Part shown: positions 18,847-23,478 of the stretch, in pieces | How the letters are laid out: the number at the start of each line of letters is the position of its first letter | Position numbering within the stretch: the first letter of the stretch is position 1 | Assembly: GCA_012519285.1 (NCBI GenBank) | Contig: JAAYQN010000058.1 | Span: 1-34,628 of the forward strand | Direction of reading: 5' to 3' | DNA: 34,628 nucleotides | Origin: Clostridiales bacterium | GTDB lineage: Bacteria; Bacillota; Clostridia; Christensenellales; HGM11417 | Position numbers and translations under genes: made by a program | The notes under the pieces: model-generated | Databases searched by the model: none | What the model saw: only the letters and a program-made list of their open reading frames with translations | What the model was told of the DNA's origin: nothing

Positions 18847-19734
18847 ATGTATATTACCACAAAACAAGCTGCCAAAAAGTGGGGCATTAGCGAAAGGCGG
18901 GTAAGGGTCTTATGCGCAGAAGGCAGAGTTGAGGGAGCATTTAAGGTTGGCCGCGCATGGAATATCCCGTCGGACGTCAGGCGACCTGAAGATGGCAGGC
19001 TAAAAAGGGACCTGATTGCGGAGATAGAGAAGAAGAAGGCTGTTTTGGACTGCAGAAGGCCGCTTTCGGAAGGGGAGACGGCTCGTCTTGTCGAAGAGTT
19101 TGTGGTCGAGTACACCCACAATTCCACCGCAATAGAGGGTAACACGCTCACCTTGAGAGAAACTGAACTGGTGCTCAGAGGGATTACCATTGATAAAAAG
19201 CCCTTGAAGGAACACCTTGAGGCCATCGGCCACAGGGATGCCTTTTATTTCGTGCTCGACCTTGTCAGGAAAAAGGCTGAGCTTTCGGAGAGCGTAATAA
19301 AACAAATTCACACCCTGGTGCTGGCTGACAAACCTCAGGACAGGGGGATATACAGAAAGATACCCGTAAAGATAATGGGGGCCTCTCATACGCCGCCGCA
19401 GCCGTATTTGATAAAGCAGGAAATGGAGAAGCTGCTGGCTGACTACAAGAGCTGTGAAGGCAACATTATCAGAAAAGTTGCGATATTTCATTTGAGGTTT
19501 GAGGGAATTCATCCCTTCATTGACGGCAACGGGCGGACGGGCAGGCTGCTGGTCAACCTCGAATTGATGAAGGCGGGGTATTCGCCCATCGACATCAAGT
19601 CCAAGGACAGGAAGAAATATTACGATGCGTTTGAAGAGTATTTCTCAAAAGGAAACGAGCAGGCTATGGTCGACTTGTTTGCCGAATATATGTTGGAGAG
19701 TCTGAATAAGTACCTCAGAATATTGAATTATTGA
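18847..19734 (+). CDS. Fic-family AMP transferase with N-terminal helix-turn-helix domain
   Basis: The 295-residue protein has two visible parts. Residues 1-45 resemble excisionase/MerR-type DNA-binding domains (ITTKQAAKKWGISERRVRVL and a wing with KVGRAWNIP). The rest is a Fic domain with the full catalytic motif HPFIDGNGRTGR (His222 to Arg233), the flap region after IYRKIPVKI, and an N-terminal inhibitory motif STAIEGN (residues 93-99) whose Glu97 would block ATP in class II Fic proteins. Fic enzymes usually transfer AMP to hydroxyl groups of target proteins; the target is unknown. No small antitoxin gene is adjacent. The palindrome over its promoter suggests self-regulation. Confidence 0.9.
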   Translation: MYITTKQAAKKWGISERRVRVLCAEGRVEGAFKVGRAWNIPSDVRRPEDGRLKRDLIAEIEKKKAVLDCRRPLSEGETARLVEEFVVEYTHNSTAIEGNTLTLRETELVLRGITIDKKPLKEHLEAIGHRDAFYFVLDLVRKKAELSESVIKQIHTLVLADKPQDRGIYRKIPVKIMGASHTPPQPYLIKQEMEKLLADYKSCEGNIIRKVAIFHLRFEGIHPFIDGNGRTGRLLVNLELMKAGYSPIDIKSKDRKKYYDAFEEYFSKGNEQAMVDLFAEYMLESLNKYLRILNY

Positions 19735-19864: not shown

Positions 19865-19892
19865 ATGGTATATATTTTAACGCGGAGAGTTG

Positions 19893-20765
19893 ATGAAGAC
19901 CGGATATATTATAGGAAACGGCTTTCAAAAAATGCTCAAGATGGATGAGCTGATCTGGCATTTTGAAGAGCTGTTCAAAAAACACGGCTGCGATATCCGG
20001 GTCATTAAGAGCGACAAGGCTTACGCCTGCGTGGGAAGGGACGGCAGTGCGGGCTCAGGCGGCATCAAAGAGGCGGACTTTATACTCTTCTGGGACAAGG
20101 ACGTTATGCTCGCCCGCGCATTGGAAAAGGAGGGATATAGGCTCTACAACAGCGCGAGGGCGATTGAGATATGCGATAACAAGGTGGCGACCCACCTGTT
20201 CCTGTCAAACTGCGGTATCAGGATGCCAAAGACCATCCCCGCGCCGCTCATCTTTGAGGGGTCGGAGGTTAATGCGGACAGGGTGCTTGAGCGCGCCGAA
20301 GCCTGCCTCGATTACCCCTTAGTGGTAAAGGAAGCTTACGGTTCCTTCGGCCAGCAGGTCTACCTTTGCAAGGACAGGGAAGAGGCGAGGGAGCTTGTGC
20401 TCAAGCTAAAATACAAGCCCTTCCTCTTTCAGGAATTTGTGAGCGAGAGCGCCGGACGGGATATAAGGATCTACGTGGTGGGAGGAAAGGTGGTTGCATC
20501 AATGCTCCGCACCAACGATAATGACTTTCGGGCAAACATCTCAAACGGCGGCAGGATGTCCCCGATAGACCCGCCCCAAGATTACAAAGAGATGGCGGTA
20601 AAGGCCGCCGAGCTCATAGGCCTCGATTACTGCGGAGTGGACATCCTGATGGGAAAAGAGGGCCCGCTGCTTTGCGAGGTCAATTCCAACGCTCACTTTA
20701 AAAACATTCAGATATGCACGGGAATTGACGTGGCGGAGCACTTCGTCAAACATATTCTAGGATGA
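19893..20765 (+). CDS. RimK-like ATP-grasp ligase, first of a tandem pair
   Basis: The 290-residue protein has the ATP-grasp order of RimK/LysX-type carboxylate-amine ligases. An N-terminal pre-domain ends at LYNSARAIEICDNKVATH. The Lys and glycine-loop region VVKEAYGSFGQQVYL is at 144-158, the adenine-site FLFQEFV at 178-183, and GRDIRIYVVGGKVV at 188-201. DFRANISNGG precedes the metal site, with D250 and E262-V-N264. These enzymes join an amino acid or amine to a carboxylate through an acyl phosphate; the substrate is unknown. GGAGAG precedes ATG 19893. It overlaps its paralogue by four bases, so the two proteins are made together. No precursor-peptide gene is visible nearby. Confidence 0.85.
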   Translation: MKTGYIIGNGFQKMLKMDELIWHFEELFKKHGCDIRVIKSDKAYACVGRDGSAGSGGIKEADFILFWDKDVMLARALEKEGYRLYNSARAIEICDNKVATHLFLSNCGIRMPKTIPAPLIFEGSEVNADRVLERAEACLDYPLVVKEAYGSFGQQVYLCKDREEARELVLKLKYKPFLFQEFVSESAGRDIRIYVVGGKVVASMLRTNDNDFRANISNGGRMSPIDPPQDYKEMAVKAAELIGLDYCGVDILMGKEGPLLCEVNSNAHFKNIQICTGIDVAEHFVKHILG

Positions 20766-21607
20766 AAAAAGGCTATATAATCTACGCTCGCGAAGACCTT
20801 GAGCGTAACAGGGAGTTTGCGCAGAGGTTTGTAAAATACGGCCCCGAATACGGCCTGGATATCGGGATACTGAAAGAGGAGCAGATTGTTTACGGCATAG
20901 AGAGCGGGTTGCCGCACTGCGGCGTCTCACCTTGCGACTTTGTCATCAACCGGGCGAGGAACGCCTACCTCGCAAGGTTCCTTGAGGAGCGGGGCGCGAG
21001 GGTTTTCAACAGCAGCGAGGTTACCCGGCTTTGCAACGACAAGTGCGCCGCATACCTTTTTGCCGTTGGCAAAATTCCCTGCCTCGACACGTATATATTA
21101 AAGAGAAGGGACCTGCTCCAAGGGGCGGCAAAGCTATGCTTTTTCCCCTGCGTGATAAAGCAGCTCACTTCCCACGGCGGGCAAAAGGTATTCCTCTGCG
21201 GGAACTATGCCGAAGCGTTTAATGCGGCGGAACAAGTCGATGGAGAATACGCCATAGTTCAGCGACCGCTCGCCGAGGAAGGCATATCTGACATAAGGGT
21301 TTTTGTCATGGGAAACCGGATAATCGGCGCCGTGCGGAGAAAGGCAAAAGATGGCATAAAGGCAAACTTCTGCCAAGGGGGCGAGATTTCGCTTTACGAA
21401 GTTGGGGAAAAGCTGAAAGGTTACGTGGAGAGGCTGACGCAGAAGCTGTACTTTGACTTTGTTGGCATGGACTTTCTTACGGCAGACGATGAGCATTTTT
21501 ACTTCAACGAGATAGAGGACGCCGTGGGCAGCCGCTCGCTATGCATTTTAAAGGGCATTGACACTTCAAGGATATACTTAAATTATATTAAAGATATTTT
21601 AAAATAA
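20762..21607 (+). CDS. RimK-like ATP-grasp protein, second of a tandem pair, altered active-site residues
   Basis: This 281-residue paralogue shares with its neighbour the start MKKGYII, the VFNSSEVTRLCNDKCAAYLF block, and the CVIKQLTSHGGQKVFL loop. At two places it departs from the usual pattern. The adenine-site QEF reads QRP (168-170), and the metal-site E-V-N reads E250-I-E252-D253. It may have a shifted specificity, or may be a non-catalytic partner of the first protein. The ATG overlaps the previous stop (ATGA). The next gene starts 18 bases after its stop, behind AAGGTGG. Confidence 0.8.
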   Translation: MKKGYIIYAREDLERNREFAQRFVKYGPEYGLDIGILKEEQIVYGIESGLPHCGVSPCDFVINRARNAYLARFLEERGARVFNSSEVTRLCNDKCAAYLFAVGKIPCLDTYILKRRDLLQGAAKLCFFPCVIKQLTSHGGQKVFLCGNYAEAFNAAEQVDGEYAIVQRPLAEEGISDIRVFVMGNRIIGAVRRKAKDGIKANFCQGGEISLYEVGEKLKGYVERLTQKLYFDFVGMDFLTADDEHFYFNEIEDAVGSRSLCILKGIDTSRIYLNYIKDILK

Positions 21608-21934: not shown

Positions 21935-22309
21935 ATGGATAGGGAAATCATCTTAAAGCTTCCGCTTTGCTCAAATAATCTGCTGTGCGCAAGGCTGACC
22001 ACGAGCGCCGTCTGTTCCCTCCTGAACCTCAACGTAGACGACAGCGAGGACCTTAAGGTCTGCGTCAACGAGGCATGCCTGCTCATAATGGGCCAAAACT
22101 ACAAGGTGGTGAGGCTGGTCTACAACCTCGGCGACACCCTCACGATAGGCGTCTACGGCGAAGGGGTCTGCGAGCATCCTCACACGGGGATAGGGGAGCA
22201 GGAACGCGAACTGTGCGTCCAGCTTTTAAACAGCCTGGTTGACAAAGTGGAGTACAACAAGGTAGGCGGCATAATCGAGTCAATAATGTTGATAAAAAGG
22301 ATAATCTGA
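21935..22309 (+). CDS. Anti-sigma factor (RsbW/SpoIIAB-like) with degenerate ATP-binding motifs
   Basis: The 124-residue protein sits where rsbW or spoIIAB normally lies, between antagonist and sigma genes, and its stop overlaps the sigma start. The N-box region DLKVCVNEACLLIMG can be aligned with SpoIIAB. The general-base Glu is kept (E46), but the Mg-binding Asn four residues later is Leu (L50). The DxGxG box reads IGVYGEGV and lacks the Asp, and no GxGF/L lid loop is seen (RELCVQLL there instead). Inference: it may still bind the sigma factor but is unlikely to be an ATP-dependent kinase. Confidence 0.72.
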   Translation: MDREIILKLPLCSNNLLCARLTTSAVCSLLNLNVDDSEDLKVCVNEACLLIMGQNYKVVRLVYNLGDTLTIGVYGEGVCEHPHTGIGEQERELCVQLLNSLVDKVEYNKVGGIIESIMLIKRII

Positions 22310-23064
22310 TGCAAAGAGCTGCGACCAGTTACGAGGAAAACATATACGACAACGATTTGGCGCTTTTCCGTGAATACAGCAGAACGAAAGACATAGCTCT
22401 TCGTAACAAGCTGATAGAGAAATACCTTTATCTAGCGGAAATAATGGCCAAAAAATTTGTCAACAAAGGGGTGGAGTACGACGACTTATTCCAGGTATCC
22501 TCGCTCGCGCTCATTAAGGCCATTGACCGCTTCGACGTGAAAAAGGGCGTCAAGTTTTCCACTTTCGCCACGCCATCCATTCTCGGCGAGATAAAAAATT
22601 ACTTCAGGGATAAGTCCAGGCTTATAAAGCCGGGGCGCAAAAACAACGCGCTCATTCAGAAAATACATAAGGCTAAAGAGGAGTTTAAGAACAAGTACAA
22701 CCGCGCCCCCAACGCGGAGGAGCTTGCGAGGATTTTAAAGACCGACGTTGACTCCATAATCGAGGCGATGGAGTACAATTCCAGCGTGTTGTCTCTCGAC
22801 AGCACCATCGACGACAGCGACACCTCGCTATATGAGGTCATTCCCGACACCGAAAACGTCTTTGAGAAATTTGACGACCTAACGGTGCTAAAGCAGGGGC
22901 TGGACAGCCTTTCGCCCCTCGAGAGGGAAGTAATTGAAAAGCGCTTTTTCAAGAGCATGAGCCAGTCGGAGCTCGCCAGGGAGATGAACGTATCGCAGAT
23001 GTTTATCTCCCGCCTGGAGCGCAAGATAATAGGCAAACTAAAAAACATGTTTGAAATCATCTGA
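22309..23064 (+). CDS. RNA polymerase sigma factor, SigB/SigF/SigG family (SigB-like)
   Basis: The 251-residue protein has sigma-70 region 2 (EYDDLFQVSSLALIKAIDRFD and the FSTFATPSILGEIKNYFRDK block), region 3 and region 4 with the helix-turn-helix SQSELAREMNVSQMFISRLE. SigF and SigG share a VSRSL element after region 2.4; here RLIKPGRKNNALIQKI is found instead. The LSLDSTIDDSDTSLYEVI linker resembles SigB. It is preceded by antagonist and anti-sigma genes, as in sigB operons. In B. subtilis sigG lies four genes upstream of yggS, so an origin related to that locus is possible. The regulon is unknown. Confidence 0.88.
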   Translation: MQRAATSYEENIYDNDLALFREYSRTKDIALRNKLIEKYLYLAEIMAKKFVNKGVEYDDLFQVSSLALIKAIDRFDVKKGVKFSTFATPSILGEIKNYFRDKSRLIKPGRKNNALIQKIHKAKEEFKNKYNRAPNAEELARILKTDVDSIIEAMEYNSSVLSLDSTIDDSDTSLYEVIPDTENVFEKFDDLTVLKQGLDSLSPLEREVIEKRFFKSMSQSELAREMNVSQMFISRLERKIIGKLKNMFEII

Positions 23065-23109
23065 AATGATTAAATATATATTGGAGTTAACTTGCATCAG
23101 GGGGTTTTA

Positions 23110-23478
23110 ATGCTGCACCTGATTTTTCGGAACTTTTCGCACCTGTCCCGCGACGCCCGCAAGATTAAGGACTACCTAAACTCAAAAGGTTTCATCGATG
23201 AGGATGATCTGTACAACGTCAGACTCGCCATCTTCGAGCTTGCCGGCAACGTGCTCAAACACTCCAAGAGGACGGCGCTGGTGCAGCTTAAGTGCGAGGG
23301 CGACGTAATCAGGATATACATCAAGGGCAGCAACCCCTTTGAGCGAGGCGAGATAACCCTTCCCTCTGTGGAAGAAGAATATGGCAGGGGGATTTTTATT
23401 GTAAGTCAAATCTGCGAGAGCCTGGAATACTACGACGGCGGAAAAGAGGTTTGCGTCTGTATAAAATGCAAGAAATGA
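23110..23478 (+). CDS. HATPase-domain protein, probable second anti-sigma/switch kinase
   Basis: The 122-residue protein belongs to the HATPase_c_2 (RsbW-like) group. The N-box is intact in FELAGNVLKHS (E43 and N47) and a G2 loop is present at YGRGIFIVSQI (residues 91-101). The middle Asp box is altered (IKGSNPF). It starts 45 bases after the sigma gene; ATG 23110 follows CAGGGGGT, preferred over TTG 23092. Inference: it could phosphorylate the STAS antagonist in place of the degenerate RsbW-like protein, or pair with it. Its end overlaps the yggS start. Confidence 0.75.
   Translation: MLHLIFRNFSHLSRDARKIKDYLNSKGFIDEDDLYNVRLAIFELAGNVLKHSKRTALVQLKCEGDVIRIYIKGSNPFERGEITLPSVEEEYGRGIFIVSQICESLEYYDGGKEVCVCIKCKK

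Follow-up and report, generated by a model that had tools for sequence, protein, structure and literature searches.

Our comparison of a four-gene cluster from a Clostridiales bacterium with its relatives strongly supports a partner-switching module in which, judging from the sequences, the anti-sigma factor is a putative binding pseudokinase and a second protein a presumed dedicated kinase. RsbW and SpoIIAB each do two jobs, binding of the sigma factor and phosphorylation of its antagonist. A sequence-only reading of the window (the whole stretch of 34,628 nucleotides analysed, contig JAAYQN010000058.1) had proposed that these jobs may be split here, possibly between the halves of a heterodimer. 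What speaks for the split is that the antagonist contacts are conserved and the ATP site is lost, that a partner HATPase is constantly present and that the serine of the STAS antagonist does not vary; against it, the presumed kinase of the window's own lineage also lacks the Asp of the DxGxG box.

The cluster and its RsbW-like protein

Four consecutive genes on the plus strand of the window make up the cluster, which thus brings together a STAS protein with the conserved Ser, HATPase proteins and a SigB/SigF/SigG-type sigma factor. They encode a STAS anti-sigma factor antagonist of the RsbV/SpoIIAA type with a phosphorylatable Ser53 (P0001, 21626..21928; Pfam STAS 1.2e-20, NCBIfam TIGR00377), the degenerate RsbW-like anti-sigma factor P0002 (21935..22309), recognized by a weak PF13581 match, its predicted fold and its motif loss, the sigma factor (22309..23064) and the second HATPase P0004 (23092..23478, with an ATG at 23110; PF13581 3.2e-8, over the cut-off), the presumed STAS kinase. 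The sigma factor matches TIGR02980 with an E-value of 3.2e-63 at 213.5 bits, under the model's cut-off of 234 bits, and its best PDB match is sigmaF (1l0o_C, 9.4e-37). Only 18 bases before the STAS gene lies a pair of RimK-like ATP-grasp genes (19890-21607), with a gene for a Fic/DOC-family protein carrying an N-terminal helix-turn-helix further upstream (18847-19734); a matching ATP-grasp pair also precedes the module in one relative (G001, L028 4064-5808). Matches to a SigB-like autoregulatory promoter upstream of the STAS gene were not enriched (4 versus 6.5 in shuffles). On other contigs, the same genome carries an intact spoIIAA-spoIIAB-sigF operon and SpoIIE, and its SpoIIAB (contig C8), aligned with P0002, served as the internal control for reading the motifs.

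In this alignment P0002 looks as it had been described from the window: E46 is in place, Leu50 stands where SpoIIAB has N50, the DxGxG box has no Asp (YGEGVC instead) and the lid glycines are missing. The protein scores under the curated RsbW/SpoIIAB equivalog cut-offs (30 bits for the 145 of PRK04069, 20 bits for the 135 of TIGR01925). Its AlphaFold2 model (pLDDT 92.4) has the GHKL/RsbW fold and superimposes on Bacillus subtilis RsbW (6m36_A) with a Z score of 18.4 and an rmsd of 1.0 over 102 residues; the lid region is short and the lid helix absent. In B. subtilis RsbW, Arg23, Asp42, Lys44 and Glu49 contact RsbV, and Glu49 touches the phosphorylated Ser56 (PMC7340262). By alignment to 6m36 these residues correspond to R20, D39, K41 and E46 of P0002. 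Among 56 degenerate proteins this R/D/K/E set is conserved at 98-100%, and the positions of N50, the G1 Asp, the G1 Gly and the lid Gly hold a wide variety of other residues. Such motif loss together with contact retention at 56 loci is far beyond what chance would give. Since the aligned RsbW Glu49 touches the RsbV serine, Glu46 is best read as a predicted antagonist contact rather than a catalytic remnant, and the best reading of P0002 itself is a putative non-catalytic anti-sigma factor. Intact motifs in relatives, which the sequence-only reading had named as a sign of error or recent decay, were not found among the orthologues; recent decay or a sequencing error in P0002 is ruled out, the same pattern being present at 56 loci across the class.

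A second HATPase and its distribution across the Clostridia

P0004 retains E43, N47 and the GRG loop (92-94), as had been noted from the window. It had also been taken as intact, but its own DxGxG box is lost (IKGSNPFER) and the adenine-binding Asp with it. The AF2 model (pLDDT 88) has the RsbW/SpoIIAB fold, and P0004 and P0002, although members of one fold family, are only distantly related (12% identity in a profile alignment). E, N and GRG of the second HATPase are invariant in 28 relatives and most members of the family keep DxGxG; the Asp is missing in the window's clade and in five other relatives, and all six sequences without DxGxG retain E43, N47 and GRG. Because this Asp is missing, ATP use by the second HATPase appears doubtful in the window's clade and these five relatives. 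Some kinase activity, from P0004 or from SpoIIAB, is probably still there in the window's lineage, since gene order is maintained there and neither the phosphatase nor the serine of the STAS protein has been lost.

An order-level search of 100 relatives and the window's genome gave matches in 25 genomes, and in two of these the match was true SpoIIAB; in most of the others, as far as the contigs extend, STAS is followed by degenerate RsbW, sigma and the HATPase, with the exception of family f24. Three f24 genomes (L020, L021, L023) have a degenerate RsbW beside a sigma gene and neither an adjacent STAS gene nor a second HATPase. A class-wide profile search had hits in 175 of 291 genomes, and a gap in the scores separates the P0002 family and intact RsbW (E < about 1e-12) from SpoIIAB. 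Gene-by-gene examination of about 100 of these loci yielded three groups. Intact RsbW, with EACTN, DxGxG and GGLG and a sigma gene that is not followed by a HATPase gene, occurs in Clostridioides difficile, Romboutsia, Terrisporobacter and Peptacetobacter. Degenerate RsbW with a HATPase gene after sigma was found at 56 loci across the class, including Caldicoprobacter, Ruminiclostridium and Petroclostridium. Degenerate RsbW without a HATPase in the cluster forms the third group, to which Tissierella, Sedimentibacter and Anaerosalibacter belong. In families f63 and f78, the latter including Tissierella praeacuta, the second HATPase is encoded outside the cluster in 11 of 11 genomes and has an intact DEGxG. 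There (L247, L249-L258) it stands alone near typA, mostly also near engB, at a site common to both families.

Among the 23 genomes with intact RsbW, none has a true copy of the second HATPase. One apparent exception (G359) was rejected, its extra HATPase having RRG and belonging to a cluster that also encodes a STAS protein and a CheA-like one; likewise, L093 does not count as a locus without the second HATPase, the DNA at that place being masked N. A partly degenerate RsbW lies beside sigma in family f34 (L111, L133, L137, L138, L155), where no adjacent STAS gene was found and the second HATPase is absent from the genome.

On the best tree of the sigma factors (80 rows), the state of the RsbW motifs (intact or lost) and that of the second HATPase (absent or present) switch jointly at two points, and a single origin is compatible with the tree (AU p 0.18). 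The independent-pair test had two pairs only, both in the expected direction and too few for significance, and the Fisher values for the association ignore kinship. With just two changes on the tree and one origin possible, the association does not amount to many independent observations; the co-occurrence of degenerate RsbW and the second HATPase reflects only one or two evolutionary events.

The proposed switch and its alternatives

The sequence-only reading had seen no phosphatase nearby, and the window indeed has no SpoIIE or PP2C gene, but the genome carries two elsewhere. Besides SpoIIE, a PAS-PP2C protein is encoded on contig C91 (L051 2366-3511). At the order level, its full-length form is present in 15 of 23 genomes with the module versus 1 of 78 others and, at the class level, in 23 of 33 genomes with degenerate RsbW versus 1 of 17 with intact RsbW; it is absent from 10 of the 22 class genomes of the linked type. 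It adjoins cdaA-ybbR in four relatives (L059, L063, L064, L066) and a gene for a YegS-like lipid kinase in another (L067). Its catalytic Asp residues do not vary, and its PAS domain has three cysteines (C56, C71, C74) that are almost invariant; these cysteines suggest that the protein perhaps senses redox, metal or gas. We infer that it is the candidate phosphatase for the module's STAS protein. The presumed substrate serine of the latter is invariant in all 89 proteins compared, and such complete conservation implies that its phosphorylation would still be under selection.

We consider it likely that these proteins form a partner-switching module in which the two jobs of RsbW/SpoIIAB are divided over two proteins. 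P0002, unable to use ATP, would hold either sigma or the unphosphorylated STAS protein through its R/D/K/E face. The HATPase encoded after sigma (the P0004 family) would phosphorylate the STAS serine, so that sigma stays locked. PAS-PP2C, perhaps upon a signal, would strip the phosphate off the STAS protein and sigma would be freed.

Alternatively, the second HATPase might not be a kinase at all and pair with P0002 as an antagonist to free sigma, like Mycobacterium smegmatis RsbW3, which does so through a heterodimer with RsbW1 (PMC10950880). The fold family shared by P0004 and P0002 and the loss of DxGxG in the window's clade would fit this role, which we regard as improbable: family-wide E, N and GRG are invariant and most members have DxGxG, RsbW3 closely resembles RsbW1 whereas the second HATPase is far from P0002 in sequence, and some kinase is needed because the STAS Ser and the PP2C are kept. 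In our view it is very improbable that P0002 still works as a kinase by means of an unusual ATP site, with some other task for the second HATPase, for example that of a phosphatase activator like RsbT, which is likewise a small HATPase and switches on a phosphatase of the PP2C type (PMC12143880). The invariant E46 that would favour an active P0002 is explained as a Ser contact, the scatter of N50, the G1 Asp/Gly and the lid Gly over many residues argues against it, and genomes with intact RsbW have no second HATPase. The RsbT-like role also meets the absence of additional STAS genes: the stressosome substrates RsbR/RsbS were found neither in several module genomes nor in the window's own genome (assembly 86% complete), where SpoIIAA and P0001 were the only STAS proteins seen. 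In two relatives (G055, G024) the module's STAS gene is the sole one found in the genome, leaving the second HATPase there without a stressosome substrate and making an RsbT-like stressosome role unlikely.

Two further possibilities concern the window's lineage. The second HATPase may no longer be a kinase there, SpoIIAB or no kinase acting on the STAS protein. P0004 without DxGxG and an intact SpoIIAB, with its own STAS protein and SigF, in the same genome would agree with this; however, E43, N47 and GRG persist in every DxGxG-less sequence, the PAS-PP2C is retained with its catalytic Asp residues, and so is the gene order, all of which makes such a loss unlikely. As both HATPases of this lineage lack a complete ATP site, the active kinase might instead be a composite, with P0002 as docking scaffold and P0004 supplying E, N and GRG, or it might run on some other nucleotide, or bind ATP even though the Asp that reads the adenine is gone; we hold this to be a rather unlikely, though not negligible, reading.

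Relation to known partner switches

The order STAS-RsbW-sigma, the fold, the contact residues and the type of sigma factor are those of RsbV-RsbW-SigB and SpoIIAA-SpoIIAB-SigF in B. subtilis. Unlike P0002 as read here, B. subtilis RsbW and SpoIIAB do both jobs, keep N, G1 and the lid, and have no separate antagonist kinase. The SigB operon of C. difficile, with its phosphatase RsbZ, belongs to the same class and has the same order but, unlike the window, an intact RsbW and no second HATPase after sigma (L222). The top Foldseek hit of the P0002 model (5e-8) is Mycobacterium tuberculosis UsfX (8jzt, 8ih8; complexes with SigF or RsfB); it is actinobacterial and compares less well with P0002, with a weaker sequence profile (3e-6) and Z scores of 14-16 versus 18.4 for RsbW.

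To our knowledge, experimental proof of such a division of labour has so far been limited to mycobacteria. In M. smegmatis, genetics and a kinase assay proved that RsbW1 binds SigF and has no kinase activity whereas RsbW2, which does not bind SigF, is the only kinase of RsfB (PMC7693655); RsbW3 is an antagonist (PMC10950880). The clostridial module resembles this SigF switch in the predicted division of the jobs between two HATPase proteins, in its presumed STAS serine substrate and in its candidate PP2C phosphatase. It differs in that the actinobacterial genes lie at three loci and the four clostridial ones are clustered, or have the kinase gene at another fixed place. The mycobacterial type of motif split, in which the second HATPase has N, G1 and G2, is present in most clostridial relatives, and P0004 of the window lacks G1. 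Since RsbW1 and RsbW2 divide the same jobs, the split is known in principle; its presumed clostridial form, for whose family the literature searched yielded neither a description nor biochemical work, is new and widespread.

A large share of Clostridia have an 'RsbW' that is probably no kinase. In B. subtilis SpoIIAB, the bound nucleotide helps to choose between sigma and the antagonist. In a split module, sigma binding would be ATP-blind and energy sensing, if any, would reside in the separate kinase. The conserved cysteines of the phosphatase offer a testable signal, and the mycobacterial parallel allows one to ask why the split evolves.
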